From contig NZ_CP047935.1 in NCBI RefSeq assembly GCF_014279995.1, forward strand, positions 1,151,243 to 1,215,242: a stretch of DNA of 64,000 bases, given 5' to 3'. Numbering within the stretch: position 1 is the first letter of the stretch; every line of letters starts with the position of its first letter. The DNA comes from Synechococcus sp. BIOS-E4-1. GTDB taxonomy: Bacteria > Cyanobacteriota > Cyanobacteriia > PCC-6307 > Cyanobiaceae. The notes under the pieces were generated by a model that worked only from the letters and a program-made list of their open reading frames with translations, did no database searches and had not been told where the DNA came from. Of the stretch, positions 4,673-62,803 are shown piece after piece. Both the position numbers and the translations under genes were made by a program.

Positions 4673-4900
4673 ATGACGGCATCACCCGTTCAGCAGTTTC
4701 TCGAGCGTCTGGGCCGTGATCCGCTCCTGCAGGTCAAGGTCCAGGCGGCGGTTACCGCCGACGAGGTGGCCCGGCTGGCCCAGGAGCTCGGTTATGTCGT
4801 CTCCGGCAGCGACCTTCTGATGTTGTCTGGCCGCAGTGCGGCTGGGGTTCGCGTCACACGGGTGGATCACCCCGGTGAATATCCAGGTCGTTACTACTGA
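4673..4900 (+). CDS. Nif11-domain protein without a GG core peptide
   Basis: 75 residues from MTASPVQQF. The helical pattern VQQFLERL, DPLLQVKVQ, ADEVARLAQELGYVVSGSDL is the Nif11 domain also found in prochlorosin leaders. It has no double-Gly site and no Cys-rich core; it ends VTRVDHPGEYPGRYY. The Nif11 protein at 44989 shares the VTV/PGEY ending, so these two form a subfamily of unknown role. Confidence 0.75.
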   Translation: MTASPVQQFLERLGRDPLLQVKVQAAVTADEVARLAQELGYVVSGSDLLMLSGRSAAGVRVTRVDHPGEYPGRYY

Positions 4901-4971
4901 ATTCAGCTGTTGTCATGGAGGTGCATTCGGTCACAGACAACTTCGCAGGGCTCTGACAATGTCGCTGGAAT

Positions 4972-7728: not shown

Positions 7729-8874
7729 ATCAATCAGACCTCAGCTGAATGAACGCTACCTGATTTGACGCTGAAAAGCGCAGCTTCGCTTTGCTCGATC
7801 ATTGTTTGTTTTTGTCGTTCAGGCAGATGTTGCGCGAAGCCGCAGCGGCGGCCTGCAACAGCTCGGCATGGAAAGGTTTCCCGGCTTGCCCTGACAAGAC
7901 TGCAGTACACGCATTTCATGCATCTGCATCATGTCTGGAGTGCTGAGCGAAACAGCGCCCATCAGTGTGACGGCGGCGCCGGCCAGGTCTGACTGGAAAG
8001 CCATCAAGGAGATTGCGTTGGAGATGTATCCGGTGTAATCACCCTCCGCATGTTCACGGCTCTCGTTGACCGGATGCAGTATCGCCTGTGACTTTGCTCA
8101 TAGAGCAGGATCGAGTTCACTGGGAATGAGATTCCGCATGCAGTCTCGATAATCAAAGTATTGCTAGTTGGTGAGTTGCTGTCTGGAAGCGGCTGTTCAG
8201 GCACAACGCAAACGCACGGAACCTGGGAGATTACAAACAGGTTGTGAGAAGCTTTATCCGGTTAGGTGATGATTCAGGCCGTTGTCATGATTACTGAACA
8301 GATTTTCTGCCAACGAGAGAAGATCAATCCAAGGTGTTCGTCGCTCAGCTGCAAATAGCTGGCAACTGACAGGAAAAGATCAAAGCAGCAGTTAAGGACA
8401 AGGTTGTCGCTTCCATAGCCTGAAAAGCAGGGTTCAGCATCTCCACAGATGATATCAGTAGGGCTCAATCAATCCGAAGTTTCTGATCAATAGCTTGATG
8501 GTGGCGCAGGTGGAGCTCCTGCACTGTGCGGAATATCTGTATTTTATTGCCGTATGAATCCTTAGACGTTTGTCAGGATTTTGACGATTTTAAAATATAT
8601 GCTACACGAAAAGATGGAAGGCAGATGGCTCCAGTGTAGGCGGCAGCTTAAACACTCAAATTCACTTCAATAGAAGAGGCTGTTTATTTTTTGATTGCCT
8701 CATTATTTGCATGGATTCAAATACAATGCCTGGCGTGGCTGGGCCCAGTTGGCCGCAAGTCGATCGAACCAAACGCCTATTGATGTCTGCGGTCAATTGG
8801 TGAACCCAGGCGATCTTCCTTCAGCGGCAGCCATCGATCTCGACACCCAGGCATGAGTGTCGACACAGATGCAT
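7729..8874. other. gene-poor stretch left of the integrated element
   Basis: About 1.1 kb with only short overlapping frames on both strands (for example 64 residues minus at 8274-8468). None shows a family motif. The stretch ends at the left attachment repeat. Confidence 0.4.
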
Positions 8875-8956
8875 GACTGGCTTTTGCTGCAGCCAGAGCT
8901 GCCTTAAGCCAGGGCTAGGGCCTTCTTGTTTTCGTCTTGCACGCTTGTTTCCACAA
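8875..8956. repeat. attL direct repeat
   Basis: 82 bp, similar to 31702-31784, with the last 33 bp (8924-8956) identical in both. Read on the minus strand it still encodes the last residues of the host gene found at the other end, ending ENKKALALA and a stop, so it is the displaced original 3' end or the element's matching copy. Confidence 0.85.
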
Positions 8957-9006
8957 CAAACGCAGTTTGAGTGCTGGACAGTGATCTGAGCAGCAGGGCG
9001 AAATGA

Positions 9007-9025
9007 GTTGCCGAATAGTTGCCGA
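9007..9025 (+). promoter_or_regulatory. integrase arm-type motifs, left end
   Basis: Two copies of GTTGCCGA, at 9007 and 9018, spaced 11 bp and in the same orientation, lie about 50 bp inside attL. Four copies or variants occur just inside attR at 31580-31623. Same-orientation repeats near both ends fit arm-type binding sites for the integrase; binding is inferred. Confidence 0.55.
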
Positions 9026-9211
9026 GTGACACCATCCATAGTGCCCGTTTCGGTTTTGGGGCTTCTGGTGCGCGAAACCCTCGCTAAATTCCCAGTGTTC
9101 GGCCAGTAGCGCGGTCGTTCTGTGGAGAGCACCGGTAGCTCAGGTCCGCAATTCTACGATCACAAAAACCATGTAATCCCTTTTGTGCCATGGCTTTTGG
9201 GGCTTTTTGTG

Positions 9212-9475
9212 ATGAGTGAAAGTGCAACAGCGTTGCTGATCGCCAAGGTCGAGCAACTGACTGCTGATGTTCAGACCCTGCTCCAGCGGGTGCCGAGTCA
9301 TGAACGCAAATGGATCAGCCCCACTGAGCTGGCACAACGTGCGAACGTCTCGGTTCGCACGGTCCAGAACTGGCGCGAGTCAGGTGTGATCAAACCCGAG
9401 AACTTCCGCCCTGGTGGTCGCAGTTTCGAGTTTCACGTTCGTGCCTTGGATGACATCGATGCGAGGCGGGGCTGA
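9212..9475 (+). CDS. MerR/excisionase-like helix-turn-helix protein
   Basis: 87 residues from MSESATALL. A short coiled segment (KVEQLTADVQTLLQRV) precedes WISPTELAQRANVSVRTVQNW, a winged-helix/HTH of the excisionase type, followed by RESGVIKPENFRPGGRSFEF. Position just inside attL supports a role as recombination directionality factor, or as regulator of the DUF4326 operon. The stop overlaps the next start by one base. Confidence 0.65.
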   Translation: MSESATALLIAKVEQLTADVQTLLQRVPSHERKWISPTELAQRANVSVRTVQNWRESGVIKPENFRPGGRSFEFHVRALDDIDARRG

Positions 9476-9987: not shown

Positions 9988-12672
9988 TTATTCGGGGGTG
10001 TGGCTTTCAAGCAGCTCTAGTTGTCCTTCGGAAAGTTTTGAGCGGTGGATCCAACCGTTCACCTGCGTGCCCCAGGCGTCCTCTTTGAAAGCCCCACCGT
10101 CCTTTGTCCAGAGCTCAGGGATCAGACGGAAACCAAAGAAGTGTGCTGGAACTCGATTTTCACCCTTGCCGCTGCGCTTGCGGTGCAGGTGGGGAACGAT
10201 CTGCTTCAGACGGTTTTTGAAGTTCTGCAGAGCGAGCGCATTCCGCTGGCCATACATCTCGATGAACGTCGAGTAGCACTGGTAGATCTCCAATTCGTCG
10301 GGCACCTCATCTGCAGGTGCTGGTTCCAGGCATTGATCAACCCAAGCGTGCAGCGTGTCCATCTGAGCGGTGATGTCCTTCGCTGTCCGCTGCAGTTCGG
10401 GGTGCTGTTTCGCCAACACTGCTGCGACATCAGCAGCGGGCATGGCGAGTGCCCAGCCGATCAGTTGCCCGAGCTCTGCTTCCAGGCGGTCTTCCCAGAT
10501 GTCGGCCTGAGTGGGATCAGTGGGGATCAGATCGGAGGGCAGTCTGGTGTCGAGTGTTCGCACCACCAGAACCCGACGCTTGAAACCAGTGTTCGCATCC
10601 TTCAGGTGAGGGAGCTGCGTGCTGGCCAGGGTGATCCGGCCTCTGAAGGTGAAGGCGATGGTGCCCTTGCTGAAGATGTCCCGAGCGGTCAGCACCTGGC
10701 CGTAATCCGCAAAGGGATAGAGGCAACCCGCATCCTCCTGTCGCCCTTGCAGATCGGGGAATGTGATGAGGTGGCTCTTGGCAGCGTGCTGGGCTCGTTT
10801 CTCAGGATTGTTCAGCTGATTGAAGTTCGTCAGGCTTGAGACGAGCTCCATGGGGAACATCTTTTGCAGCAGGCGCAATGCAACACCCTTGCCGCTGCCG
10901 GACTCACCCAGCACGAACAGAAAGATCCGACAGTGGTAGGTCGGATCAGCGTGATACGCGAACAGCGCTCGCCACACCTCCAGCAGCTGTAGGCCGAATG
11001 ATGTGCGGATGAACTCTTTCGTCCATGGTGGGCACTCATCACACGGCACATAGTCGTGATCGATGCCGAAGGTGAGCCTGTAATTCTTGTCGTGCGGGCG
11101 CTGATGCCAGGTGTCGCCAATCTTCAGCAGCGTGCAGTTTTTGAATGCAATGGCCGTGGCGGGCGTGAAGGTTTTCGCATCGACGTAAGCCTGTGTGCCG
11201 ACCCACTGGCAACAGCGAGTGACCATCGGCGTGGTGCCAAATTTTTTGCTCTTCACCATGACCACCTCGCCGCCCTGCTGCTTTGGTTTCCAGGTGTAGA
11301 TGCGACTAAGCAGCTTGCTGATCTCCTGTTTCAGCAAGGTTTCTGAGTAGGGCACGTAATAGCCCTGCTGTGGGTCGTACTTGCGGAGAACACCGTTGAG
11401 ATAGATCAGGTGTGAGCCTTCCGACTGCAGCTTGAGCTCAAACGCTTGCTGAACCTTGAGCTCAGCGGTTTCCTCTTCACCCATTTCAAAATCGAATTTG
11501 TGATCCCAGCGGGCTTGTGCTTCAGCAACCGCTTTGGCGGTGGCCGCTTTGGCTTCAGGGCTGGCTTTGAAGCCTTTGAGGTGTTCGTGCCAGACGCAAC
11601 CCGATGCCTGTGCTGCTGTCTGCAGCCAGGCCATGGGATTGCTGGTCATGCCGTCGAAGCTGCCCCACTTCGCGTGGCAAACCCCATCCTCGTAACCGTG
11701 ATCAGGGTCAGTGTTGCCAGCAGACCACTCATCCCACTCGCCAACGTCAAGGCCAAGTGCTTCGCAGGCCATTCCGGTTTTGAGCCACCAGTCGTAGCCG
11801 CTGACTCCAACCTCATTGAGGGTTTTTGAGTCAGGTGTGGCAGTGATGTGCTGGAGCAGTTCGCGGGCTTCTGTTGTTTGCTGCGACTGCTCAGCAGGGT
11901 CTAGTCCTTCGCGGGGCGTCCATTCGCTGGTTTTCTGTTCGTAGGCCGGAAGGATGGAATCGAGCTCCGCGACTGAATAGAAAGTGCCGGTCTGCTCGAC
12001 GATCCGGCAGCGCTTCTTTGTGACCGGGTGTAATGACCCTGCTGCACGCATGACGCGGGCGGCATTGTGCAGGCTGGTGTCGATGCCGAAGGCTGGGTGG
12101 GCCTTAACGGCCTGGATCAGCCGCAGCATCAGTGCCTTGTGAGCTGCTGGGGACTGGCGGCTGGAGTATGTCCAGTAGAAGTGGAATCCACGCTGCCCGG
12201 TCTCCACTGTGAATGTGGCTTCTGGCATCCCCACTGCCTGCAAGATCCGCTTTGCTTCAGCGAGTTCGATGCCGCCATCACAGTCGGCCATCAGTGCTGG
12301 GCATCGTGCGATGTGGGAATCCTTGGCACCGAAGATCCTTTTACCTTCGATGTCCTGCCACTCAGGAACCCAGATCAGGGTGGCGGGATTTTCATCCCAA
12401 TCAGCAGGCTGCGGCAGTGGTCTGCCGGGGATGAATCCGAAGCCGTGATCCTGGATGAATTGGATGGCGACATCTGGATTGGATGGCCTGAGCTTCTGGT
12501 GACTGCAGGATCCCTGTTTCCAGTTCACTAGAACAAGCTCTTCGTGATCACCAATGCCGAGCAATTCCAGCTGCTTGTTGAACTCGTCGGTGATCAGAGG
12601 CTGATTAAGCATCTGATCAAGTTCAGCAGCAGAGGGGATGGTGATCTGAGGTTTTGCTGTATCTGCCAACAT
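9988..12672 (-). CDS. primase-helicase (AEP-like primase, PriCT-2, D5-like helicase)
   Basis: 894 residues. The N-terminal part has MADCDGG and TGQRGFHFYW with NAARVMRAAGSLHP, like RepB/AEP-type primases. Around residues 290-345, WLKTGMACEALG, WDEWSAGN and AKWGSF match a PriCT-2 linker. The C-terminal SF3/D5-like helicase has the Walker A FVLGESGSGKGVALRLL, then ITFPDLQG and a downstream arginine-rich region. Such fusions start replication of phages, plasmids and satellites. It lies 60 bases after the helicase gene on the same strand; an iteron array sits upstream of the operon. Domain borders are approximate. Confidence 0.85.
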   Translation of the reverse strand: MLADTAKPQITIPSAAELDQMLNQPLITDEFNKQLELLGIGDHEELVLVNWKQGSCSHQKLRPSNPDVAIQFIQDHGFGFIPGRPLPQPADWDENPATLIWVPEWQDIEGKRIFGAKDSHIARCPALMADCDGGIELAEAKRILQAVGMPEATFTVETGQRGFHFYWTYSSRQSPAAHKALMLRLIQAVKAHPAFGIDTSLHNAARVMRAAGSLHPVTKKRCRIVEQTGTFYSVAELDSILPAYEQKTSEWTPREGLDPAEQSQQTTEARELLQHITATPDSKTLNEVGVSGYDWWLKTGMACEALGLDVGEWDEWSAGNTDPDHGYEDGVCHAKWGSFDGMTSNPMAWLQTAAQASGCVWHEHLKGFKASPEAKAATAKAVAEAQARWDHKFDFEMGEEETAELKVQQAFELKLQSEGSHLIYLNGVLRKYDPQQGYYVPYSETLLKQEISKLLSRIYTWKPKQQGGEVVMVKSKKFGTTPMVTRCCQWVGTQAYVDAKTFTPATAIAFKNCTLLKIGDTWHQRPHDKNYRLTFGIDHDYVPCDECPPWTKEFIRTSFGLQLLEVWRALFAYHADPTYHCRIFLFVLGESGSGKGVALRLLQKMFPMELVSSLTNFNQLNNPEKRAQHAAKSHLITFPDLQGRQEDAGCLYPFADYGQVLTARDIFSKGTIAFTFRGRITLASTQLPHLKDANTGFKRRVLVVRTLDTRLPSDLIPTDPTQADIWEDRLEAELGQLIGWALAMPAADVAAVLAKQHPELQRTAKDITAQMDTLHAWVDQCLEPAPADEVPDELEIYQCYSTFIEMYGQRNALALQNFKNRLKQIVPHLHRKRSGKGENRVPAHFFGFRLIPELWTKDGGAFKEDAWGTQVNGWIHRSKLSEGQLELLESHTPE

Positions 12673-12732: not shown

Positions 12733-14517
12733 CTACTGCCGGATGAACAGCTCGTGGCTGGCCCTGGAAACTGCAACGTAGGTCAAACGATTTAGATCGG
12801 TGCTTTTCTTGCAGCAGTCAAGATCGAGCATGTCAACGAAAACCGTTCTGTATGTGCTGCCTTGAGATTTGTGGACGGTCATGCAGTAACCAGGTTCAAC
12901 AGGACTGAAGAACTCCGCTGCCTCGTAATACTTGCGCCAGTGGTAGCGCCTGGAATCCTCAAGATCTGCATTCCACTTGCCTTTTGGGTCATTTTTCTGC
13001 TTTTGCAGCGCCAAAGCTTTGTCTTTGCGGCGTTTTTTCACTCGCTCCATCAGATCTTGATCAGCAGGATGCAGGGCCAGGAATTCAATATCCTTGCTGA
13101 TGTCATATTCGTTTTTGATTTGAGGCATGAAACCTTGAATTTCGTAACCCCTAACTCTCTCCCCGTCGAAGTCATGGACAGTGCTGCGGGTCTGCAGAAC
13201 TGTGATCTCAGTTGCACTGCCGCAGAGCAATACCTCATCGAGAGGGCACATGATTGCGTCAGTTGAAAGAAGTCTTTCACCCGGTTGAAAGGGTTCAGCA
13301 CCTGGCCCATAAAGGTGATCACGCGCCATTGTGTTCAGCTTGTTGACGGTGGCATTTCGATAGGCCAAACACTGCACGTCATATTCACCACGACCACCGC
13401 TGTCCTGTTTTTTCAGGTAATCAAGCCAGCTGCTGATCCATTCAGAGGAATGCAGCACTGCCACGCTGGATTCGGTGCCATCGCCAGGATCACTGACCAT
13501 TGCCGGCCGACCTGAGAGACCGTGTTGACGTACAGCGGTCGCCAGGCTGAGGACTGGCCCGGAATGCCTCACCACATTTTCGAGCTTGACGCGAACATCC
13601 CAAAGGTCAGCAGGCCACGGGCTCTCTGCATCGCCTGGATTGAAGATTGAGCTGGTCCCTTTTACGGGATAGAGCTGCCGGGGATCACCGATTCCAATCA
13701 GAACAATTTGAGCATGTTTGCGTGGATAGTCCTTGTCTTCAGTTCGCTTGCACAGTCGTTCCACCAGCAGCTCCAGATCCGAATCGGGGATCATGCTGAG
13801 CTCGTCTAGGAACACAACCCGCAGATCGGGATCGGTGTAGGGCAGATCGCTTGGCTTGACTACAAAATCACGGTTGCCTTGGTTGTCGTAGATCTTTTTC
13901 TTGCCGAGAAACTTGGTGAGTGTGGTGACTTCCAGGTGCTTACAGCCGTTGTCTTCGAGCTTGTTTCGGAGCTCGTTTGCTGCTTTGTGGGTGGGTGCGA
14001 TGCACTCGATAGCAGTGCGGGGATTTTTGAAGTACCACTCACACCACCTCACGATTGCAGCAGTGACAGTGCTTTTGCCGGTGCCTGAATAACCCGAGAT
14101 GTTTGCAGCCAAAACGGAAGTGTCTTTGCCGGGTTCGTGTGATGACTTGGCCTGCTGGATCAGCCTGACGACTGAAGCAAAACCAGCATGTTGCTCGTCA
14201 TTTAGGTGATCAGCGGAGCAAACACCGCTGGATCGGAAGGTGTGGGAACGCATTTCAGGTTGATCGGGTGTGCAGGATTTATCGGCTTGCGCGGCAAGGG
14301 ACTTCACAACGGCAGGGGCGTGCCACAGGAATCCAGCATTCGGCGAGGATCCCTTCGCAATGAAGTGAATGCCGGGATGAAATAACGGAGGTTTGGATCT
14401 TCGGAGCTTGTCAATCGACTGCCGAGACATGCTCAGATAACGGCATAGTTCTGCCGTTGGAATCCATCCAGCCGTATTCACCCCACCCGACCTTTCGGCC
14501 AGTTTGATGAAAGACAT
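12733..14517 (-). CDS. SF1B helicase, Dda/RecD2-like, with N-terminal HTH
   Basis: 594 residues. Residues 18-60 (WIPTAELCRYLSMSRQSIDK) form an excisionase-like HTH. The helicase follows: Walker A ISGYSGTGKST, APTHKAANEL (motif Ia), VVFLDELSMIPDSD (Walker B), IGIGDPRQLYPV (motif III), a UvrD-like tail with MTVHKSQGST and TYVAVSRA. This suits unwinding at the element's origin ahead of the downstream primase. The HTH fused to a Dda-like helicase is unusual and could target it to specific DNA. Confidence 0.87.
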   Translation of the reverse strand: MSFIKLAERSGGVNTAGWIPTAELCRYLSMSRQSIDKLRRSKPPLFHPGIHFIAKGSSPNAGFLWHAPAVVKSLAAQADKSCTPDQPEMRSHTFRSSGVCSADHLNDEQHAGFASVVRLIQQAKSSHEPGKDTSVLAANISGYSGTGKSTVTAAIVRWCEWYFKNPRTAIECIAPTHKAANELRNKLEDNGCKHLEVTTLTKFLGKKKIYDNQGNRDFVVKPSDLPYTDPDLRVVFLDELSMIPDSDLELLVERLCKRTEDKDYPRKHAQIVLIGIGDPRQLYPVKGTSSIFNPGDAESPWPADLWDVRVKLENVVRHSGPVLSLATAVRQHGLSGRPAMVSDPGDGTESSVAVLHSSEWISSWLDYLKKQDSGGRGEYDVQCLAYRNATVNKLNTMARDHLYGPGAEPFQPGERLLSTDAIMCPLDEVLLCGSATEITVLQTRSTVHDFDGERVRGYEIQGFMPQIKNEYDISKDIEFLALHPADQDLMERVKKRRKDKALALQKQKNDPKGKWNADLEDSRRYHWRKYYEAAEFFSPVEPGYCMTVHKSQGSTYRTVFVDMLDLDCCKKSTDLNRLTYVAVSRASHELFIRQ

Positions 14518-15475: not shown

Positions 15476-16063
15476 ATGGGGAATACAATCCGACGCCGAA
15501 AGGATGACAGCAGCTCTTACGGGGTGAAAGAAGATCTGAAAGAACGTCGGAGGCAGGTGTTCAGCCATAGGTGCTGTGGTTTATCCATCCGTGGCATTGC
15601 AGAGGTGATGGATCTCAGCAAAACCCAGGTGCAGAAGGATCTGAACTGGGCATACAAGGAGTGGGGCGATCAGCCTGACAACACTCGCGAAGCAATCCAG
15701 GCCGAGCTGGTGGAGGTTCTTCGCCGGGCCGTTGCGCTGACGATGGCCGATGCCGAACGCCAGAGCCGTGAGGGTGTTTCCATCACCACCACCGATGGCG
15801 AAGGCAACGTCATCCAGCGCCAAACGAAAAAGCAGATCGATCCCCGCACCGTTGCTGAGCTCGGGAGGACGGCTCAGAGGTTTGCGCGGATGATCGGCGT
15901 CGATGCAGGCATTGATGGTGGTGGTCCCACCGCAGCGGTCCAGGTCGTGCTGCCAGCCCCCGCAGATCCATCGGCATTCATGGCAGCAGCAGAGCCGGTC
16001 AATGTCACTGCAGAGGCAGATGAGGTGCAGCTGGAGGCATCAGAGAGCATCAGCCCTCAATAA
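15476..16063 (+). CDS. HTH protein, terminase-small-subunit-like
   Basis: 195 residues. RRQVFSHRCCGLSIRGIAEVM and DLSKTQVQKDLNWAYKEW form an HTH like those of small terminases or resolvase-type DNA binders. A long helix (AELVEVLRRAVALTMADAERQ) and DPRTVAELGRTAQRFARMIGVDAG follow; the tail is Ala/Glu-rich. This layout is common in phage TerS. It starts 128 bases after the iteron array, so an initiator role is also possible. Its 3' end overlaps the convergent recombinase gene by 14 bases. Confidence 0.5.
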   Translation: MGNTIRRRKDDSSSYGVKEDLKERRRQVFSHRCCGLSIRGIAEVMDLSKTQVQKDLNWAYKEWGDQPDNTREAIQAELVEVLRRAVALTMADAERQSREGVSITTTDGEGNVIQRQTKKQIDPRTVAELGRTAQRFARMIGVDAGIDGGGPTAAVQVVLPAPADPSAFMAAAEPVNVTAEADEVQLEASESISPQ

Positions 16064-16619
16064 CGCTCATCACCTCACTGCCGGCCACATCCAGATACTC
16101 ACCCAATCCCTCCAGAGATTTATGGCCAGTTACTTTCTGGATCGCTTTGAGGCTGCAGCCACGACGCAACGCATTTGTGGCCAGTGATCTCCTAAACGAG
16201 TGTGTCGATGCTCCAGGAATCGCCAACCCGGCCAGGGTGGAACGTAGCGCCAGGTCCGCTGCCTGCCGGGTCATGGTCTCTTTCATCGATGACCGTGCTG
16301 GAAACAGGTAGTCCCCTGGCTTGGGATCACGACCATGGGCCTTTCGCCATGCTTCGCGATAGCGATTGAGCTCCACCGCCAAACGCTGGCCAACGTCAAC
16401 CTGTTTGGTGCGATTGGTTTTGGTGGTTCTCCGTTTGAACGTAACCATGCCGCCGTCTACAGCCCGCCACTGCAGGCTCAGCGCTTCGCTAACCCGCGCT
16501 GCTGTCCATCGCTGGATCGCCCACAAAGCGCGGTGGTTCGCTGCTGGGGCGGCATTCAGCAGCTGATCGAGCTGTTCTTCCGTCAAAACCGCTGCTTTGC
16601 CGTTGCCGTCAACTTTCAT
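16050..16619 (-). CDS. second tyrosine recombinase, catalytic domain only
   Basis: 189 residues. IQRWTAARVSEALSLQW holds the first catalytic Arg, RRTTKTNRTKQVDV the beta-hairpin Lys, THSFRRSLATNALRRG the HxxR, TGHKSLEGLGEYLDV the second His and the Tyr nucleophile. All key residues are present, but the N-terminal arm-binding and core-binding domains are missing, making it half the usual length. It is divergent from the element's main integrase. It may invert or resolve DNA locally, or be a remnant of an older element. Confidence 0.75.
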   Translation of the reverse strand: MKVDGNGKAAVLTEEQLDQLLNAAPAANHRALWAIQRWTAARVSEALSLQWRAVDGGMVTFKRRTTKTNRTKQVDVGQRLAVELNRYREAWRKAHGRDPKPGDYLFPARSSMKETMTRQAADLALRSTLAGLAIPGASTHSFRRSLATNALRRGCSLKAIQKVTGHKSLEGLGEYLDVAGSEVMSVIEG

Positions 16620-18087: not shown

Positions 18088-18228
18088 GTGCAGGAATATA
18101 AGCCCACAAGACTCACCTCAATCCGTCTGCCGGAATCACTCCATCGCAAGGCAAAAGCAGAGGCCGCAAACCAAGGAATCAGCCTGTCGAAGCTGATCAC
18201 ACAAAGCATCGAGCGCATGGTGAACTGA
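18088..18228 (+). CDS. ribbon-helix-helix (Arc/CopG-like) protein
   Basis: 46 residues from a GTG. TRLTSIRLPESLHRKAKAEA and NQGISLSKLITQSIERMV match the RHH fold: a beta strand contacting DNA, then two helices with the turn before SLSKL. The stop overlaps the start of the terminase large subunit (TGATG), so translation is coupled. Probably a transcriptional repressor; RHH or HTH partners also serve as packaging recognition subunits in some satellites. Confidence 0.65.
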   Translation: MQEYKPTRLTSIRLPESLHRKAKAEAANQGISLSKLITQSIERMVN

Positions 18229-19670
18229 TGGAGTTGCAGAGCCCCAATCCATTCCAGGAATTACTGCTCAAGGCACCACTCGATGAGCACCTGTTCTGCG
18301 GAACTGGCAAAGCAGTGGGCAAGAGTGCTGGCATCAAATTCCTCGTGGCCAGAGACGCCACGATGCTCGGACAGGATTACGCCTGTTTGATCATCAGAAG
18401 CAGCTTTCAAGCGCTGCTAGAGATCCAGGCAGACCTGCTGAAATACCTCAGCGCAGTGTTTCCAGGCACGCGATATTCCACTGCTGATATGACCTTTCGG
18501 ATCGGCGGCAAGGATGCGCCATACGGCTCGATCGAATTGGCATACAGCGCAGCTAGCCCCATGGAGCAGGTCCGGGCCATGACCCGCCTGCAGGGCCGAT
18601 CGAAGTCCACGATCATCGTTGATGAGGCCGGTGCCACGCCAACCATCCTGGAGTTCACGGATGAGCTTGCGGGCGTTTTGCGGGGCGCGCCAACAGTCCC
18701 GCGGCGAATGATCATGCTGGCCAACCCCGGCGGCCCAGCCCACAGCGAGCTGAAAGCACGGTTCATTGATCCGCTGCCGTTCCCCCTGGAACACATGCGC
18801 CCGCAGCGGTTTTACAGCGATCACTACCAGCGTTACTGCATCTCACTGACGGCAAACGCCAGCGTCAACCCGCACATCGATTGGGATCGCTACCGCAAAG
18901 AGATCGAGTTGATGGCGCACGGCGACCCCGACGTGCTGGAGGCTCTGCTGCACGGACGCTGGGGTGATCTCGCTGGCGGCAGTGCATTCGGCCCGGTCTG
19001 GTCTCCCCGCCGCTGCAGACACGAGATCCCTGCTGAATACGACCTTTCAGGCCACCAGCCCGCGCCATTTGTGGTTTGCGACTGGGGAATGTCGGCACCC
19101 TCGGCGTTCTATCTGGTGGTGCCGCGTCCCCCTGGCCTGGAGACACCAAAAGGCTCGATTCATTTTGCCGATGAGCTCTACACGTGTGCCCGAGATCGCA
19201 GCGGCAGACAGTGGTCCCGAGGATCCATGCTCACCAATCAGGAGCAAGCCGAAGCCGTGCGGGAATGGCTGGAGCGCTGGGGCCTCGCACCTCGCTCCAC
19301 GCGAATCCTTGCTGATGACGCGATCTTCGCTCGCAATGGCAGCCCGAACGGGTCTGTTGCCGGAGACTTTCGAACAGCAGGTGTGCCGATGAGCCCTGTG
19401 GGCAAAAACACGGCAACGATGGAGGCTGGCCTGGGAGCTCTCAAGTCCCGTCTTGCTTCCACCCGCAAGAACTACGACGCACCCTGGCTGACCTGGAGCA
19501 CCCGCTGTGCTGCATGGGAAAACACGGTCCCATCACTGAGCAGAGATCCAAACAATGTGGAGCGGATTGCACCAGGTCAGGTTGATCACGCTGCTGATGC
19601 TGGCCGCTACGCGGTGGTGTGGGCTAATGCCAAATGGCGGACGGGCAGAACCAACGTCCGGGTGTGGTGA
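18228..19670 (+). CDS. terminase large subunit
   Basis: 480 residues, full length. The ATPase half has the Walker-A-like FCGTGKAVGKSAG near residues 24-36, STIIVDEAGATP as Walker B with catalytic Glu, and a coupling motif near MLANPGG. The RNase-H-like nuclease half has VVCDWGMSAPSAFYL, RILADDAIF and VDHAADAGRYAV, giving three acidic metal ligands. It would pump DNA into a procapsid. No portal, protease or capsid gene follows; the next gene is on the other strand. That points to packaging into the capsid of a helper phage. Confidence 0.87.
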   Translation: MELQSPNPFQELLLKAPLDEHLFCGTGKAVGKSAGIKFLVARDATMLGQDYACLIIRSSFQALLEIQADLLKYLSAVFPGTRYSTADMTFRIGGKDAPYGSIELAYSAASPMEQVRAMTRLQGRSKSTIIVDEAGATPTILEFTDELAGVLRGAPTVPRRMIMLANPGGPAHSELKARFIDPLPFPLEHMRPQRFYSDHYQRYCISLTANASVNPHIDWDRYRKEIELMAHGDPDVLEALLHGRWGDLAGGSAFGPVWSPRRCRHEIPAEYDLSGHQPAPFVVCDWGMSAPSAFYLVVPRPPGLETPKGSIHFADELYTCARDRSGRQWSRGSMLTNQEQAEAVREWLERWGLAPRSTRILADDAIFARNGSPNGSVAGDFRTAGVPMSPVGKNTATMEAGLGALKSRLASTRKNYDAPWLTWSTRCAAWENTVPSLSRDPNNVERIAPGQVDHAADAGRYAVVWANAKWRTGRTNVRVW

Positions 19671-21694: not shown

Positions 21695-22309
21695 ATGACT
21701 GAAGGCATCGTCTACGTACTCACCAATCCGGCAATGCCGAAGATGGTGAAAATTGGCCGGACAGGGCGTGACATCGATGAACGGCTGAGCCAGCTGTATT
21801 CGACAGGTGTGCCACTGCCGTTTGAGTGCGCTTATGCCGCCAGGGTGGCGGACATGGACAAGGTGGAGAAGGCTTTCCACAACGCTTTCGGGCCTTACCG
21901 GGTCAATCCCAAACGCGAGTTTTTCAGCATTGATCCTGAACAGGCAATCGGTCTGTTGGACCTGATGAAGTTGGAGGACATGACTCCAGCCGTTCAGGAA
22001 GAGGCATCACTGGTTGATGTTGAGGCGAAGGCAGCTGTCGAGAAATTCAAAAAGTCCAGGCGACCAAACCTCAGATTTTCAAAGCTTGGAATTCCTGTAG
22101 GTGCAACGCTGCAATTCACTGAAGGCGATCAGACATGCCAAGTGGTCTCCAGAAAGCACGTTGAGTACGACGGCAAGCAATGGTCGATGACTGGTCTTGC
22201 CCATCACCTGACAGGACTCTCACGAGCATTACGAGGTTCCTCTTATTTCAGGTACGAAGGCGAACTGCTTAGTGACTTGTACGAAGAGGCATACGCGGAG
22301 GAGGACTGA
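21695..22309 (+). CDS. GIY-YIG (T5orf172) nuclease with C-terminal DUF4357/RAMA-like domain
   Basis: 204 residues. Residues 5-85 carry GIVYVLTNPAMPKMVKIGRTGRD (VYV and KIGRT are the GIY-YIG core), then VADMDKVEKAFHNAF and NPKREFFSI, typical of T5orf172. The C-terminal FSKLGIPVGATLQF and WSMTGLAHHLTG resemble the DUF4357/RAMA-type module of nucleases and modification-related proteins. It overlaps the next nuclease-like gene by one base. Probably restricts foreign DNA or nicks phage DNA; target unknown. Confidence 0.78.
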   Translation: MTEGIVYVLTNPAMPKMVKIGRTGRDIDERLSQLYSTGVPLPFECAYAARVADMDKVEKAFHNAFGPYRVNPKREFFSIDPEQAIGLLDLMKLEDMTPAVQEEASLVDVEAKAAVEKFKKSRRPNLRFSKLGIPVGATLQFTEGDQTCQVVSRKHVEYDGKQWSMTGLAHHLTGLSRALRGSSYFRYEGELLSDLYEEAYAEED

Positions 22310-22746
22310 TGAACGCCGCTGCCATTCAACGTCTGGTGCCAAAACTGTTCAGGGTCATCGCTGAACTTGAAGCGGCAGCACCTGGCAGGCACTTCACGCC
22401 TGATGGGCATCTGATTGGAAGCATCGGTGAAGTCATCGCGGCAGAACGCTACGGGCTGACTCTGACCACTGCCAGCACAAAGGGAATCGACGCGCACGAC
22501 GCCCAAGGGCGAGCCGTTGAAATCAAGTGCACCGGCAAAAACAAAGGCGTTGCCCTGCGTGGTTATGAACCATCTGCAGAACGCTTTATCGCGTTGCAAA
22601 TCAACCGCGATGGTTCTGCCGTTGAGGTCTACGACGGTCCTGCTGCACCTGTCTGGACTGCAGTCGCGCACAAGGCAATGCCAGACAACGGACAACGGAC
22701 CATCAGCCTCAACAAGCTGCGCCAACTGCAAGATGGAAAGCAATGA
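22309..22746 (+). CDS. PD-(D/E)XK-like (DUF6998-type) protein
   Basis: 145 residues. IGSIGEVIAAERYGLTL, GIDAHDAQGRAVEIKCT gives the E, D and ExK of a restriction-endonuclease-like core. The start shares bases with the stop of the GIY-YIG gene (ACTGATGA), so the two are translated together. Nuclease activity is inferred from the motif; the DUF name is from memory. Confidence 0.65.
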   Translation: MNAAAIQRLVPKLFRVIAELEAAAPGRHFTPDGHLIGSIGEVIAAERYGLTLTTASTKGIDAHDAQGRAVEIKCTGKNKGVALRGYEPSAERFIALQINRDGSAVEVYDGPAAPVWTAVAHKAMPDNGQRTISLNKLRQLQDGKQ

Positions 22747-23338: not shown

Positions 23339-23677
23339 ATGATGCTTGCAGCCCTTGCTTCAGTGCTGATAAGCAGCTGCTATGACGGCGACACCTGCCG
23401 CAGCAATTCCGGCGAAAAGATCAGGCTTGCTTGTATCGACACGCCAGAACTGCGCGGCAAACGTGCCAACCCTGTTCCTGCCAAGGCAGCACGGGACTAT
23501 CTACGCAGGCTTGTCGTTGGACGTGACGTAGGCATCAGACGTATTACCAAAGACCGTTATGGGCGCACGGTGGCTGAGCTGTTTGTCGATGGCTCAAACG
23601 TGCAACAGCAACTGGTCGCTGCTGGCCATGCAGACATCTATTGGAAGTACGCGCATCAGTGCGGGTGGACGCGCTGA
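23339..23677 (+). CDS. thermonuclease-family (SNase-like) nuclease
   Basis: 112 residues. CYDGDTCRSN, KIRLACIDTPELRG and TKDRYGRTVAELFVDG supply the equivalents of staphylococcal nuclease Arg35, Glu43 and Arg87 and the metal-binding DGDT. The N-terminus MMLAALASVLISSC could be a short signal or lipoprotein-like peptide, so it may act outside the cytoplasm. It overlaps the second GIY-YIG gene (TGATG). Confidence 0.85.
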   Translation: MMLAALASVLISSCYDGDTCRSNSGEKIRLACIDTPELRGKRANPVPAKAARDYLRRLVVGRDVGIRRITKDRYGRTVAELFVDGSNVQQQLVAAGHADIYWKYAHQCGWTR

Positions 23678-27626: not shown

Positions 27627-28583
27627 ATGGAGCGTAAATACCCGATCCCAAGTCCGATCACAGTCACATGGCCGATGCACTGGGATATGCCTGCATTGCC
27701 CTTCAAAAGGGTCTGCTGCCCTGGAGCCTTGGCGTCACCGGCTTCCGCTTTAGCTGATCCCCAATCGGGGGAGCCTGAAGCCGACACGTTCACTCTTCCG
27801 GGTGATGTGAATCTGATTGATTCCGGAGATGGTGAAGAGATCCAGGAGGGATGGCCTTCTCTAGCTATATCACCACTCATGGAAAATCAGTCGATCATCC
27901 TTGTTTATGAATTATTTCTGGGACTGAATCCAAAAAAAGCACGCTTAGTTGACATGGGCAAATCAAGCGTAAGCACTCTTGGTTATGTTCGCTTAAGAGA
28001 CAAGAATAACAGAATTTTATTCACAATAAAGCAAGGTGACATAGAAAACAAGCTTGAGGATATCCGCTCTATTCAAAATGCGAAAGATCAAAGAAGAAGC
28101 AAGGACAAAGAAATTTCCGAAATCTTTGAATCAGTTATTATCAATGTTATCTCGGGGCAAATCGATGAAGACCTTTGCCTGGCTTTTCACCAGTCCAATA
28201 GTGAAATCCAAATTCAATACAGAAATAGCACTCAGAAGCCTAGGTCAAGAAATAGGACCAGAGAAGAGCTTAGGAATGATTTTTGGCGCCCTCGCCTGAA
28301 TGATGCTCTTAAATACTCGGAAATAATAGGACGCGATGACGTCTCAAATATCACGGTAGAAGAAATAAGATCAGATGAGAAAAAAGATGTCGCAGGAGCT
28401 GCAATTGCAGGAATTGCGATGGGTTTCATCGCAGGGAGTGCAGGTCTTTTAGCTGGCTCGACCTCGGGAAATTACCAAAATGTTGTCTTTAAATTGAACT
28501 CACCAATTCTTGGTGAATTTATATGCGAAGCAAAGCATGATGTTTATAAACATATTCTTGGTTCATGCAAAAGCTATTTCTGA
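27627..28583 (+). CDS. hypothetical protein with glycine-zipper-like segment
   Basis: 318 residues. The first 80 residues are of different composition (Pro-rich, GC-rich) from the rest (AT-rich, charged), so the true start may be further in, for example MENQSIILVYEL near 27880. Residues about 267-290 (AGAAIAGIAMGFIAGSAG) form a Gly-rich hydrophobic stretch that could insert in membranes. A predicted effector or toxin-like protein cannot be excluded. Unrecognised. Confidence 0.55.
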   Translation: MERKYPIPSPITVTWPMHWDMPALPFKRVCCPGALASPASALADPQSGEPEADTFTLPGDVNLIDSGDGEEIQEGWPSLAISPLMENQSIILVYELFLGLNPKKARLVDMGKSSVSTLGYVRLRDKNNRILFTIKQGDIENKLEDIRSIQNAKDQRRSKDKEISEIFESVIINVISGQIDEDLCLAFHQSNSEIQIQYRNSTQKPRSRNRTREELRNDFWRPRLNDALKYSEIIGRDDVSNITVEEIRSDEKKDVAGAAIAGIAMGFIAGSAGLLAGSTSGNYQNVVFKLNSPILGEFICEAKHDVYKHILGSCKSYF

Positions 28584-28710
28584 TGTTTTATAGGGAAGCC
28601 TGAGGCCATGAAAGCGAGGCTGAGAGCTATACAAAACCCGAAAGGGAAAAGCAGGGGGCGTTGAGTAGTCGCTATCGATCTCCCGACAAAACAACCTCAC
28701 ACCAATCACG

Positions 28711-28733
28711 CCCCGCCAAGTGCGGGGTTTTTT
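28711..28733 (+). terminator. rho-independent terminator
   Basis: CCCCGC, loop CAAGT, GCGGGG, then six T. It follows the 27627 gene by about 130 bases. Nearly the same sequence recurs at 29908. Confidence 0.75.
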
Positions 28734-28808: not shown

Positions 28809-29696
28809 CTAACTTCTTACTGAAGACATATAGTTAACTCTTGAATAAATCGTCAATACAACAATAATTGAAGGAGGGACAAAATAAAGAAGCCAAACAA
28901 GATTCGGGTAATTAATGAAGACTGGCCCTAAGTGAACGATTCCTATAGCGGTGAATGCAGCACCGACTGTGAGCATAATCCTATAAGCATGCTTGATAAC
29001 TCTTTCTGTCTTGCCAGCTTTTTTGCCATAAAAGCTGCGAATATCATCATATCCAAAATATCCGAGTAATCCACTTTGCCCAACAAGTAGCAATCCAGAA
29101 GTAAATGGTGTCAATGGGAAACCAGCAGTTCCTACAGTTATTGGATCTATGATAACGACAAACGGTATTAGGGCAATTGAAAAAATACTTCCTAAAATTG
29201 CATATCCTCCAGAAACCAAATCTAGGTCAATCTTGGGCTGAGGAAACGCTGCCCACCTGTACCCTGTCATTCCTCCATATATTCCTGTGATCAGCAATGT
29301 AAAAAGTATGGAGCTGTTTTCATAAACCAAGACTGGGCTAGCATAAGCACCGGAAGGATCTTCTATTGCCAGGCAAATCAACAAAACTGCAGCAGATAGC
29401 ATTGCCAGGAACAATACAAGTATTCCAATCTTGCCGTAAATCCTATGGTTAACTGATCCCTTTTTTGTGAGGATTGCACCAACGGATAAAGCTAGAAATA
29501 CGCATGCACTCAGGGCGTGTATGTGCTCTGAGCTTTGAGTTAGTATCAGCCATGTTGCAATGTCTACGCCTACTTGGACTTCCTGAACAGGCGCTAAGAT
29601 TAATCTAGTTCCTAGAATTAGTAGACCCAGTATTGCAATACTTGCAATTAACTTGCCTTGAAAACTATTTTTTGTTTTTTCTATGATCTGATTCAT
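28809..29696 (-). CDS. multi-pass membrane protein
   Basis: 295 residues with about eight hydrophobic helices. SEHIHALSACVFLALS and HRIYGKIGILVLFLA carry His residues, as in DUF2306-like membrane proteins. AT-rich against the host average. Substrate or role unknown; inner membrane. Confidence 0.6.
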   Translation of the reverse strand: MNQIIEKTKNSFQGKLIASIAILGLLILGTRLILAPVQEVQVGVDIATWLILTQSSEHIHALSACVFLALSVGAILTKKGSVNHRIYGKIGILVLFLAMLSAAVLLICLAIEDPSGAYASPVLVYENSSILFTLLITGIYGGMTGYRWAAFPQPKIDLDLVSGGYAILGSIFSIALIPFVVIIDPITVGTAGFPLTPFTSGLLLVGQSGLLGYFGYDDIRSFYGKKAGKTERVIKHAYRIMLTVGAAFTAIGIVHLGPVFINYPNLVWLLYFVPPSIIVVLTIYSRVNYMSSVRS

Positions 29697-29907
29697 GGCC
29701 GACTCCTAGCGCTAAGGCTTCCACATACTTACTACAATGCTTCTACAGTGTCAATATTTATCCAAAATATGTACAAATGATTCAAAAAGTTTGGAGTATG
29801 TAGCTCAATTAGTGGAAAAGCATTTTGGATCAAGGCCTTTGATTGGCTGGCTTGGAAAGCTTCGAGGCAGTCTTCAACTTTAAATACACTGATTTACACC
29901 ATTCACG

Positions 29908-29929
29908 CCCCGCCAAGTGCGGGGTTTTT
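29908..29929 (+). terminator. duplicate of the 28711 terminator
   Basis: CCCCGC, CAAGT, GCGGGG, then five T. About 18 bases upstream are also shared with the copy at 28711, so a small DNA segment has been duplicated. It sits 70 bases before the prochlorosin-type gene and may insulate it. Confidence 0.7.
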
Positions 29930-29998
29930 GCTGCCATCCCTACGGATACGGTGCACCCTGCAGACCGGTGCTATGACTGCTGAACAGACTTGACACCC

Positions 29999-30238
29999 AT
30001 GTCAGAAGAGCAACTCAAAGCCTTTCTAGAAAAAGTCAAAGCTGACACCAGCCTTCAGGAAAAGCTCAAAGCAGCTGCTGACAATGATGGTGTTGCTGCG
30101 ATTGCGAAAGACGCTGGGTTTAGCATCTCTGCTGATGACTTGAAGAACGCTCAATCAGAAATTTCAGATGAGGAACTGGAAGGCGTGGCTGGTGGTGGGG
30201 GGGACGACTGTCCGTCGCTGGCTCTAGGTGCTTGCTGA
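29999..30238 (+). CDS. prochlorosin-type lanthipeptide precursor (Nif11 leader)
   Basis: 79 residues from MSEEQLKAFLEKVKADTS. The leader (1-66) has the Nif11 helices and ends SDEELEGVAGG, the double-Gly site of ProcA leaders. The core after Gly66 is GGDDCPSLALGAC: one Ser and two Cys, so at most one (methyl)lanthionine ring plus a spare Cys. In picocyanobacteria a single LanM synthetase (ProcM) modifies many scattered precursors; none is in this window. It lies inside the integrated element, between a duplicated terminator and its own terminator at 30295. Confidence 0.85.
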   Translation: MSEEQLKAFLEKVKADTSLQEKLKAAADNDGVAAIAKDAGFSISADDLKNAQSEISDEELEGVAGGGGDDCPSLALGAC

Positions 30239-30294
30239 ACTTGGCTATTGATTGATTCTGTTATTGGGTGATGGATTCTGAGCCTACTCATCAA

Positions 30295-30320
30295 AGCCCC
30301 TGCAACCGCAGGGGCTTTTT
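30295..30320 (+). terminator. terminator of the precursor gene
   Basis: AGCCCCTGC, loop AACC, GCAGGGGCT, then T-run, 57 bases after the precursor stop codon. Nine perfect pairs. Confidence 0.8.
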
Positions 30321-30489
30321 ATTTCTTCAACCTCGCCAATAAGCTCATAAATCAGCCTTCAATACCTGGCACGATTGAGCGCAGTTGAGCAGAGATAGTC
30401 AGGGCTTAATTAGCAATCAAGTCTGCAGTCAACTAGCAACTCCGGCCAATACTCGTTCAGCGGCAGCAATCAACTCCGACTCCCTGGCG

Positions 30490-31578
30490 TCATCCAGCCA
30501 GGGCTGCAGCGACGGCAGCAATGTCGGCCTGATCGAGCCAGCGGTGATAGGTGTTGTGATGCACCGATACGCTGTGGCCCATGCACTTTGCTGCCAATGA
30601 AGTGGACGGCACTTTGGCGATGGAGCGCACCGCCCAGGCATGGCGAATGTCATAGAGGTAAAGCGAAGGATGCTGAGCCCTGATCCACCGCTGCCAGTAA
30701 TCACACTGTTGCTTCGCCTTGATCGAGTCATATGCCGCAGGGCTGGCGACATCCCATGGAACTGATCGTTCTGGCGTCTCTTTGTATGTAGGGATTGGAA
30801 GCGCCAGGGCTGTGCGCCATTCCGGCAGCCGGCCTTTCCGTTTCACGCTGAGCACCCGTGCCGTTCCATCACCGCTGGGCTGCAGGCTGAAAGTTTCTGC
30901 TGGCCTGCATCCATAAGTGATCAGTGCCCAGGTGGGCCACCACCATTTCTCCCCTTCAGTTTTTGCCAGCAGCTCTGCCAGCAACTCATCACTGGGAATG
31001 TCTCTTTCCCGTGGTTCGTAAGGAGTCCGCAGGGCATCGAGCCGTTCAGTCCCTTCGATGCCGACAACCTTCGCCAGCCGCTTCAACACCTTGCAGCTTT
31101 CCATCCGAGTTCTGCTGCCCGGTTCAGTGGCGCTGACTGTGGCCACCATCAAATCCATGGTCAGCGTTGCTGCCGGTGGCATTCGGTTGGTTTGGTGAGT
31201 CAGCCCCTCCCAAGTCCTTTTGGCAGCACTGCTCTGAATCCGGCCCTGCCAGAAATCCTCCTCAAGTCGAGCCACTGCTTCGGCCACGGTGAGGTTGTCC
31301 GTTTTTTGGACAACTTCGACCACCGGAGCATCCCAGGGCAGCAGGGCTGGAACCATGCCGGTGGAATTAATGATGCTGGCGAGTTGCAGCACCCTGGCTT
31401 CTGCTTCCAGCAGTTGGCCCTGGTGAGCGTTCAAGCCCAGGGCGATGCGCCGATCCTTTCGCGTTCCATCGGCAGCAGTGAACGTGCCACGTAGGAAAAA
31501 ACGATCCTTCGCCACCACGATGCGACCCTTCACCCCACGGGTCTTGAGTGCTGCATTGGTGGCATCGAGCGCTTCCAT
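30490..31578 (-). CDS. int: tyrosine integrase of the element
   Basis: 362 residues. An N-terminal arm-binding-like part (GRIVVAKDRFFLRGTF) precedes a SAM-like core-binding region. The catalytic domain has LITYGCRPAETFSL (first Arg), a Lys hairpin near VKRKGRLPEW, YDIRHAWAVRSI (HxxR), AAKCMGHSVSVHHNTYHRW (His and Tyr). Position just inside attR and transcription inward are typical. Its start overlaps the arm-type repeats at 31580-31623, so it may repress itself. Confidence 0.88.
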   Translation of the reverse strand: MEALDATNAALKTRGVKGRIVVAKDRFFLRGTFTAADGTRKDRRIALGLNAHQGQLLEAEARVLQLASIINSTGMVPALLPWDAPVVEVVQKTDNLTVAEAVARLEEDFWQGRIQSSAAKRTWEGLTHQTNRMPPAATLTMDLMVATVSATEPGSRTRMESCKVLKRLAKVVGIEGTERLDALRTPYEPRERDIPSDELLAELLAKTEGEKWWWPTWALITYGCRPAETFSLQPSGDGTARVLSVKRKGRLPEWRTALALPIPTYKETPERSVPWDVASPAAYDSIKAKQQCDYWQRWIRAQHPSLYLYDIRHAWAVRSIAKVPSTSLAAKCMGHSVSVHHNTYHRWLDQADIAAVAAALAG

Positions 31579-31579
31579 A

Positions 31580-31623
31580 GTTGCCGAATTGTTGCCGAAT
31601 TTCTTGCCGGAATGGTGCCGAAA
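31580..31623 (+). promoter_or_regulatory. integrase arm-type motifs, right end
   Basis: GTTGCCGAA at 31580 and 31591, then CTTGCCGGA at 31603 and GGTGCCGAA at 31615, all the same way round and 11-12 bp apart, close to one helical turn. The same motif is at the left end (9007, 9018). Confidence 0.55.
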
Positions 31624-31701
31624 TTACGCGAAACCGCAAGACAAGCGCAACCACCAAGGCCCTGCTCAAAGCCCTGTCTGCATCTTGCTTCTCTAGTCAG
31701 T

Positions 31702-31784
31702 GACTGGCTTTTGCTGCTGCCAAGCCTGCCTCAAGCCAGGGCTAAGGCCTGCTTGTTTTCGTCTTGCACGCTTGTTTCCACAAC
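31702..31784. repeat. attR direct repeat
   Basis: 83 bp matching 8875-8956 with a handful of differences; 31752-31784 is identical to 8924-8956. It contains the last codons and stop of the host gene at 31731-32087. Confidence 0.85.
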
Positions 31785-32087
31785 GGGCGGGAACAGCATG
31801 AACACCAGACAGGTGAGGATTTCATCGAGACCGTCGTCATCAAGGGCCTGACGCGAGGCTTGTCCTGAGATTGAGAGCCAGGCCAGCAGCGCTGCTCCAT
31901 CGCTGTGATCCACTTTGGTCATTTCGCCCTGATCACCATCGACGGTTTCCATGCCATGACGGTCCTCCAGGATCGCCACAACCCTTTCCAGCAGGTGCTG
32001 GCGATTGAGACCATCCTCCGCCTCCATTTCAACGAACAGGTCTGCCCCCTCGGTTTCAAAGCGGACGTTGTAGAGCTTCGCTGCCAT
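31731..32087 (-). CDS. host gene used as integration target
   Basis: 118 residues, MAAKLYNVRFETEG to ENKQALALA. Acidic, predicted alpha/beta, with EDRHGMETVDGDQG. Its final 18 codons lie in attR; the displaced version in attL ends ENKKALALA, so integration swaps the tail but keeps an equivalent reading frame and stop. Function unknown. Confidence 0.65.
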   Translation of the reverse strand: MAAKLYNVRFETEGADLFVEMEAEDGLNRQHLLERVVAILEDRHGMETVDGDQGEMTKVDHSDGAALLAWLSISGQASRQALDDDGLDEILTCLVFMLFPPVVETSVQDENKQALALA

Positions 32088-44988: not shown

Positions 44989-45204
44989 ATGGCTCTTGAT
45001 CAGTTGAAGGCGTTTCTTGTTCTGATGCAGAACGATCCAGATCTGAAAGACGCCGTGCTTGCCTCCTCCACTGCTGATGATGTGGCCAGGATCGCTGCCG
45101 ATCTTGGCTACGAATTCGCCGGCGATGAACTGTTGCGCTTCTCTGGTCAGAAGGTTGGACGTGTCACTGTGTCTAAACGTGAAACACCTGGGGAATACAA
45201 CTGA
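44989..45204 (+). CDS. Nif11-domain protein without a GG core peptide
   Basis: 71 residues from MALDQLKAFLVLMQND. DPDLKDAVLASSTADDVARI and LGYEFAGDELL match the Nif11 domain. It ends VTVSKRETPGEYN, like the protein at 4673, with no double-Gly or Cys core, so it is not a lanthipeptide precursor. Confidence 0.75.
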   Translation: MALDQLKAFLVLMQNDPDLKDAVLASSTADDVARIAADLGYEFAGDELLRFSGQKVGRVTVSKRETPGEYN

Positions 45205-62574: not shown

Positions 62575-62803
62575 ATGCAAAACCCAAACTTTTCCTCGCG
62601 AAAGTCGTGATGACACTAACCAGCCGGAAAAGCTCAAAGCCGTTCAATCAGTTGATGCAGTGGTATGAATCGCCAAAAAAGATGGTCACGAAGTTTCTGC
62701 TGGCAAACTTGTCCTATTCAGCGAAAAAGAACTAAAAGGCGTGGCTGGTGGTGGAGGTGATGCTTGTTCTGCTCAAACAGACGCGAATCTTATTTCTAGC
62801 TGA
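62575..62803 (+). pseudogene. decayed prochlorosin-type precursor
   Basis: Three pieces match a ProcA leader in order. KPKLFLAKV is in one frame, DDTNQPEKLKAVQSVDAVV in the next, then a TGA at 62665-62667, then IAKKDGHEVSAGKLVLF and EKELKGVAGG in the same frame. The core would be GGDACSAQTDANLISS. One frameshift and one nonsense change make it non-functional, unless the 3' part is used separately. Confidence 0.7.

Follow-up and report, generated by a model that had tools for sequence, protein, structure and literature searches.

The closest described relatives of the locus analysed here are the prochlorosins and synechococsins (ProcA/SyncA precursors with the synthetases ProcM/SyncM), in which a Nif11-type leader with Gly-Gly precedes a hypervariable core, the precursor gene lies far from the synthetase gene, the host encodes a LanM with a CCG motif, and copies are scattered over the genome. 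All these features recur for the procA/syncA-type precursor gene at positions 29999-30238 of a 64,000-nt stretch of Synechococcus sp. BIOS-E4-1 (positions 1151243-1215242 of C1, the only contig of a genome of 3,314,220 bases); this whole stretch is referred to as the window. The question addressed is how marine picocyanobacteria acquire dozens of unrelated lanthipeptide cores behind one leader. From sequence comparison, we propose that the locus is very probably an intact gene for a prochlorosin precursor and forms cargo of an integrative element of 22.8 kb that has phage-type genes for replication and packaging.

Known mobile elements resemble such a carrier. Tycheposons possess a tyrosine recombinase, integrate site-specifically in picocyanobacterial islands and occur in cargo or satellite forms, and phage satellites or phage-inducible islands encode an integrase, a helix-turn-helix (HTH) protein, a primase, a helicase and a terminase. 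A link between lanthipeptide genes and mobility is already in print: precursors near integrases and transposases, with transfer as an idea (PMC10783134), integrases over-represented near class II lanthipeptide clusters (PMC12715929), and lanthipeptide genes in gene islands of Prochlorococcus LLIV (PMC7522525).

Precursor gene, recombinase and element boundaries

The features that define the locus are as follows, in window positions.

8275-8513, plus strand: remnant of a decayed procA gene directly beyond the left repeat, with 150 of 239 positions identical
8656-8852, plus strand: remnant of decayed modules D and E, located between the procA remnant and the left repeat, with 119 of 198 positions identical
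8874-8957, no strand: left attachment-like repeat, identical core 8925-8957, duplicating the 3′ end of the 118-aa gene
9008-9025, no strand: arm-type-like site TTGCCGAATAGTTGCCGA
29958-29998, plus strand: 5′ stretch common to many procA copies (blastn of the window against stretches of its own genome)
29999-30238, plus strand: procA/syncA-type precursor gene, ATG at 29999 and stop TGA at 30236-30238, 79 aa (Pfam/NCBIfam and paralogue alignment)
30279-30385, plus strand: module D, a 3′ module common to procA copies, with a terminator-like GC hairpin and T run followed by a conserved stretch
30386-30488, plus strand: module E, abutting the 3′ end of the tyrosine recombinase gene
30490-31578, minus strand: open gene for a 362-aa lambda-Int-like tyrosine recombinase (by predicted fold)
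31581-31598, no strand: arm-type-like site TTGCCGAATTGTTGCCGA
31701-31784, no strand: right attachment-like repeat, identical core 31752-31784, within the 3′ coding end of the 118-aa gene
31731-32087, minus strand: 118-aa target gene, its 3′ end used for integration, present in 13 of 31 genus genomes including this one

The precursor consists of a 66-aa leader (29999-30196, its end reading EISDEELEGVAGG, with VAGG last) and a 13-residue core (30197-30235, GGDDCPSLALGAC) with one Ser, no Thr and two Cys. Its matches to Pfam Nif11 (PF07862, E = 3.2e-18) and to NCBIfam TIGR03798 leader_Nif11 (E = 1.3e-26) both exceed the curated cut-offs, and therefore the frame is not a chance one. An open reading frame listing offers an alternative TTG start at 29990, three codons upstream (82 aa); the ATG at 29999 is the start that fits the family alignment. 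The position of Gly-Gly is settled by alignment of the paralogues read in the window and 36 further stretches (410,536 bases together, about 12% of the genome, picked around listed leader places), wherein 155 of 172 full-length leaders end in GG at the same position. The ProcA-like leader with a double-Gly site, which an original prediction made from the letters of this DNA had claimed, is thereby borne out. That prediction further gave the product one ring and one free Cys. With one Ser, no Thr and two Cys, GGDDCPSLALGAC could form one (methyl)lanthionine ring at most, so the single ring stands, whereas the free Cys holds arithmetically but could be oxidised or otherwise used.

The protein encoded next to the precursor matched nothing in Pfam, NCBIfam or PHROGs, nor did its sequence profile match the Protein Data Bank; its assignment as a lambda-Int-like tyrosine recombinase is supported by the predicted fold. 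The model, folded from six sequences, reached a mean predicted local distance difference test score (pLDDT) of 76.7 and a predicted template-modelling score (pTM) of 0.47, the fold from two sequences reaching a pLDDT of only 44. The top Foldseek hit is lambda integrase 5j0n (E 7e-5, template-modelling score (TM) 0.40, root-mean-square deviation (rmsd) 18.3), the top VIA-align row is 1z19 (Z 12.4, rmsd 5.6, 243 aligned, residues 96-359 of the integrase), and other tyrosine recombinases occupy the top rows of the comparison; model residues 1-88 are scarcely covered by the VIA-align rows. Arg225, Arg312, His335 and Tyr344 are invariant in the integrase alignment, and we take them to fit the tyrosine-recombinase catalytic set. 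At E <= 1e-30, integrase relatives are present in 18 of the 300 family genomes, this one included, and the closest found elsewhere belongs to Synechococcus sp. AG-679-A04 (76%). In 15 stretches with an integrase, tRNA-Ser(TGA) lies within 250 bp in nine and tRNA-Arg(CCT) in two. On IMG/VR viral contigs, single-sequence patterns gave no match to the integrase or to the large terminase subunit (TerL) of the element; a search with the alignment recovered seven contigs (L098-L104) carrying integrase relatives of about 40%, with a weak homologue of the element's HTH protein at 9122-9475 nearby in six of the seven.

The insertion spans 8925-31751 (22.8 kb) and is bounded by an 84-base repeat, the copies of which are identical at 74 of 81 positions in the best ungapped stretch and share a perfect core of 33 bases. 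Within the 64 kb, TTGCCGAATNGTTGCCGA is matched exactly at just two places, one lying 50 bases rightward of the left core and the other 153 bases leftward of the right core, where a lambda-Int-like enzyme would be expected to have its arm sites. From relatives, ten neighbourhoods of the 118-aa gene were fetched, and four of them (G277, G283, G302 and G271) lack the 23 kb: their left flank matches up to window positions 8075-8136 and resumes from 31665-31747 onwards, with a gap at the junction of about 0.2 kb in G277, 1.1 kb in G283, 1.1 kb in G302 and 1.2 kb in G271. The exact right edge is blurred in G277 because its match to the window extends 36 bases beyond the right repeat. The more distant G213, wherein window position 4901 stands just 41 bases from 31767, is consistent with an empty site, and the remaining five either have a different left neighbour (G303, G300) or are rearranged or too distant to judge (G169, G156, G260). 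Repeats, the two near-identical arm-like sites and empty sites together support the integrated element of the original prediction. Nor was the locus seen conserved without the element: in the stretches from the four relatives with an empty site, ProcA-type leaders are absent and only a different Nif11 type occurs, one also present in the window at 4673. The procA and D/E relics outside the left repeat are perhaps leftovers of an earlier insertion. A tRNA gene as the target of the window element was rejected, as ARAGORN finds none in the window and the repeat sits in the 3′ end of the 118-aa gene.

The other genes of the element are these.

9122-9475, plus strand: HTH protein that matches MerR_1 and, weakly, the PHROG families small terminase (E 2.3e-6) and excisionase (E 3.2e-5)
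9988-12672, minus strand: phage-type primase (PriCT-2 / D5-like)
12733-14517, minus strand: Dda-like helicase
15476-16063, plus strand: HTH protein, matching phrog_645, named RNase E (E 2.2e-11)
16050-16619, minus strand: second, short tyrosine recombinase (int2; PF00589)
18228-19670, plus strand: TerL, phrog_2 (E 3e-17), about 25% identity to annotated TerL in phage records
21695-22309, plus strand: T5orf172 protein, PADLOC candidate defence family PDC-S57 (E 3e-77)
22309-22746, plus strand: DUF6998 protein, with a 52% homologue in the tRNA-Ser element described below
23339-23677, plus strand: staphylococcal-nuclease-like (SNase) protein, with a 77% homologue in the tRNA-Ser element
27627-28583, plus strand: 318-aa protein, function not assigned, with a homologue fragment beside procA in the tRNA-Ser element

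The layout resembles that of a phage satellite, with primase, helicase and TerL, and with no PHROG match to capsid, portal or tail families among the element proteins scanned, a subset of its frames; a small-terminase role of the HTH protein at 15476-16063 is putative and only an inference. The Rfam scan of the window returned only two Cyano-1 RNAs (RF01701; 39385-39448 and 57134-57197), both outside the element.

Just upstream of the precursor, a 295-aa gene (28809-29696, minus strand), membrane-type by eye, is bracketed by the two copies (28699-28732 and 29896-29929; 97%) of a 34-base direct repeat that has a GC hairpin and a T run. Sequences like this repeat precede the start codons of several other precursors by about 35-50 bases, so the 295-aa gene looks inserted between repeat and precursor. 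Elsewhere in the window lie a precursor truncated at its 5′ end with a core-like tail GGDACSAQTDANLISS (62669-62801) and, besides the Nif11 protein at 4673, another at 44989.

Host machinery and precursor repertoire

The original prediction relied on a host synthetase, and the genome does encode two full-length LanM proteins outside the window (TIGR03897, E 4e-217 and 2e-212, above cut-off), the sequences of both containing CCG. Adjoining the second LanM are an NHLM-type peptidase/ATP-binding cassette (ABC) exporter, a full-length match to TIGR03796 (E 1.5e-211) and the best match of its family, as well as a second ABC unit and an HlyD-like protein. LanM above cut-off occurs in 12 of 31 genus genomes, this one included, so possible recipients that need only a precursor exist; the control genomes gave one match, below cut-off. 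Apart from these genes, 835-aa open frames with a partial, sub-cut-off LanM match (E ~1e-28) are present at G000:C1:1540780-1542027, in this genome, and at G277:C12:385824-386948, possibly LanM-like dehydratases of another cluster for ribosomally synthesised and post-translationally modified peptides.

The genome holds at least 171 leader places (two listings combined). The stretches read gave 229 profile hits for the leader, of which 172 are full length, each preceding a core of its own; 163 of these 172 different cores contain Cys as well as Ser/Thr. The other 57 hits were excluded from the 172; among them, 17 begin at model position 4-8 and extend to the model end. A stricter definition (start M, V, L or I at model position 1, last leader residue Gly, and a core of 8-60 aa with Cys and Ser/Thr) leaves 159 precursors, and the strictest, which adds a Met start and GG, leaves 132. 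For the profile's definition 172 is a minimum, the reading having covered about 12% of the genome, around listed places. A core with one ring is not rare here, since 33 of the 172 permit exactly one, and in 10 of the 172 Cys outnumber Ser/Thr with at least one Ser/Thr present. In a first look at 300 family genomes drawn, with a maximum of 20 candidates scored per genome, this genome had 259 candidates among the rows listed, the next (G277) 126 and the third 57, these being candidates and not genes. The largest precursor set that we found in print (PMC10783134) numbers 83, against the 172 full-length leaders read here, and the genome appears to hold about twice that set.

The precursors are organised in repeating units. 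Full-length copies form 37 clusters (at 5 kb), and neighbours within 1 kb lie on the same strand in all 119 pairs; one example, the cluster L017 (1396500-1415300), has 21 full-length copies. Likeness at the DNA level is 0.713 for sampled leader pairs against 0.613 when shuffled and 0.785 for module D copies, whereas sampled core pairs are barely above shuffled (0.625 vs 0.614). Module D follows within 320 nt after 120 of the 172 full-length genes, and of the 86 cases where a full-length gene comes within 300 nt after D, 66 have its ATG exactly 62 nt from the end of D. In eight of the 13 loci where it was seen, module E closes the array on the downstream side, and its match ends at the same base (30488) in five loci. 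The constant spacing of these tandem arrays prompted the idea that D might be a site of attC type, as in integrons; this was set aside, as tandem duplication accounts for the arrays.

Two observations concern module E itself. A 516-aa serine recombinase (L036 1289-2839; G000 2805888-2807438) overlaps, with its 3′ end, a copy of E that is 99% identical to the window E and ends a four-gene precursor array near 2807420, mirroring the arrangement at the window's tyrosine integrase. On the opposite strand, E resembles the C-terminal end of some protein (..GTNARESELIAAAERVLAGVAS), as in L010, L034 and L011.

Carriage, exchange of units and competing explanations

A second element of the same genome lies between tRNA-Ser(TGA) at 1954464-1954552 and a 60-base 3′ fragment of this tRNA gene at 1973667-1973726 (97%). 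It contains an integrase pseudogene, relatives of the window's SNase (77%), int2 (54%) and DUF6998 (52%) proteins, and, at 1958113, a precursor with D and E, the core of which is LRRPGCVNSFGTPPVNPSLFHCSTSTPFCD; past the tRNA fragment at 1973667 come a further relic of an integrase, pieces of SNase and one more precursor, likewise with D and E. In the relative G260, tRNA-Ser and an integrase are followed by two precursors 3.3 kb downstream, and in G271 precursors stand on both sides of the integrase, a distant relative (34%). Hence other copies with different cores, to which the original prediction had pointed, are found in the tRNA-Ser element and near the integrases of these two relatives. 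The tRNA-Ser element's precursor (L027 2719-3410) and an array precursor at 2490227 (L032 2733-3424) share 692 bases at 96%, a match that includes the cores, with one residue differing, and ends near the end of D; therefore, a unit has passed by copying between element and chromosomal array, in one direction or the other.

These findings lead us to suggest, tentatively and as a possibility that falls short of probable, that precursor units (5′ stretch, leader, core and D) are exchangeable cassettes, that one or a few of them are regular cargo of satellite-like elements belonging to this integrase family, and that homologous flanks pass units between elements and arrays. It is somewhat unlikely, in our estimate, that the window precursor is instead an accidental passenger, its units having spread by tandem duplication and homologous recombination through the leader and D/E flanks until one landed in the element by chance. 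The 37 clusters and the uniform strand of close neighbours are what such spreading would leave, and the integrase locus of AG-679-A04 and the integrase homologue at 2350991 are without a nearby precursor; also in favour of chance, about 12% of random genome points fall within 4 kb of a full-length precursor. Against that background, five of 13 recombinase places in the genome (PF00589 and PF00239; two below cut-off) lie this close to one, a proximity that is suggestive only, three of the five cases being one locus. Chance landing fits less well with the second element, which repeats SNase, DUF6998, int2 and the precursor-D-E series, with the precursors near the integrase in G260 and G271, and with the precursor and D/E relics directly outside the left repeat. 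We consider it quite unlikely that the window gene, intact as it is, is unexpressed or unmodified as one of many decaying duplicates: decay is indicated by the 57 leader hits short of full length (the 17 mentioned above being largely another Nif11 type, the other 40 fragments or partial matches), yet the window copy has an intact frame, the canonical Gly-Gly and a core with Ser and Cys, and its leader is the seventh best among the best 150 places listed for the family in this genome. Mobility through TnpAREP/IS200-type (Y1) transposases rather than the integrase is highly improbable and was rejected, since the single Y1_Tnp match of the genome, at 2096494, is about 47 kb from the nearest precursor found.

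Several observations weigh against element carriage, or against its regularity. About 1.1 kb of other DNA stands at the junction in three of the four empty-site relatives, and the fold match of the integrase is moderate (Foldseek TM 0.40, rmsd 18.3; pTM 0.47). The integrase of the tRNA-Ser element has a stop codon, and neither primase nor TerL was found in that element. The AG-679-A04 locus has D and E and no precursor within 2.3 kb beyond the integrase, and therefore the cargo need not include a precursor; another integrase homologue of the genome, its fourth (2350991), is 33 kb from a precursor, and the integrases of nine relatives have no precursor nearby, with no leader match in those nine genomes among the matches listed. 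A ProcA-like gene was found neither on IMG/VR contigs in two scans nor in 50,697 phage records. All three exporter proteins beside the second LanM score under the curated NHLM cut-offs. Among the precursor copies read in this genome none is a close paralogue of the window core GGDDCPSLALGAC, and without one a recent transfer of this core itself would lack support.

Under the reading of the locus as element cargo, the window precursor would be expressed in the host, a host LanM would dehydrate Ser7 and close one thioether ring, most likely Ser7-Cys13, and an NHLM-type transporter would cut after Gly-Gly and export the 13-residue peptide, with a calculated monoisotopic mass of about 1159.46 Da after loss of one water. 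For excision of the element, Int would recombine the repeats, and a helper phage may serve in its packaging; to a strain already possessing LanM and exporter, the precursor gene by itself would bring a new core, while the homologous flanks (leader upstream, module D downstream) would let units pass between elements and chromosomal arrays. Element carriage is thus a plausible way for precursor genes to move between strains. If the cassette reading is true, a promiscuous LanM would have at its disposal an open library of cores supplied by horizontal transfer, and this would explain 172 cores in one genome; and if elements supply cores, core diversification becomes testable.

Relation to known systems

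Measured against tycheposons as generally described, the window element likewise combines a tyrosine recombinase with site-specific integration, and its copy in the window is not at a tRNA gene. Phage satellites, again by their general description, have a gene set that the window element resembles, the cargo here being a lanthipeptide precursor. Picocyanobacterial tyrosine-integrase elements, as presented in PMC10187409, share with the window an integrase of more than 350 aa that PHROGs misses, and are found near tRNA genes in variable islands, as are the relatives of the window integrase. That family uses tRNA-Phe and tRNA-Cys, whereas the relatives of the window integrase lie at tRNA-Ser(TGA) and tRNA-Arg(CCT) and the window copy at the 3′ end of a protein gene.

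In the open-licence PMC papers searched, no precursor was found described as part of a mapped element that has repeats, an empty site and packaging genes of phage type. The precursor itself belongs to a known family, and its carriage by a satellite-like element is the new part: resembling the prochlorosins and synechococsins in leader, core and host machinery, the window precursor differs from them in sitting within a repeat-bounded element with phage-type genes.
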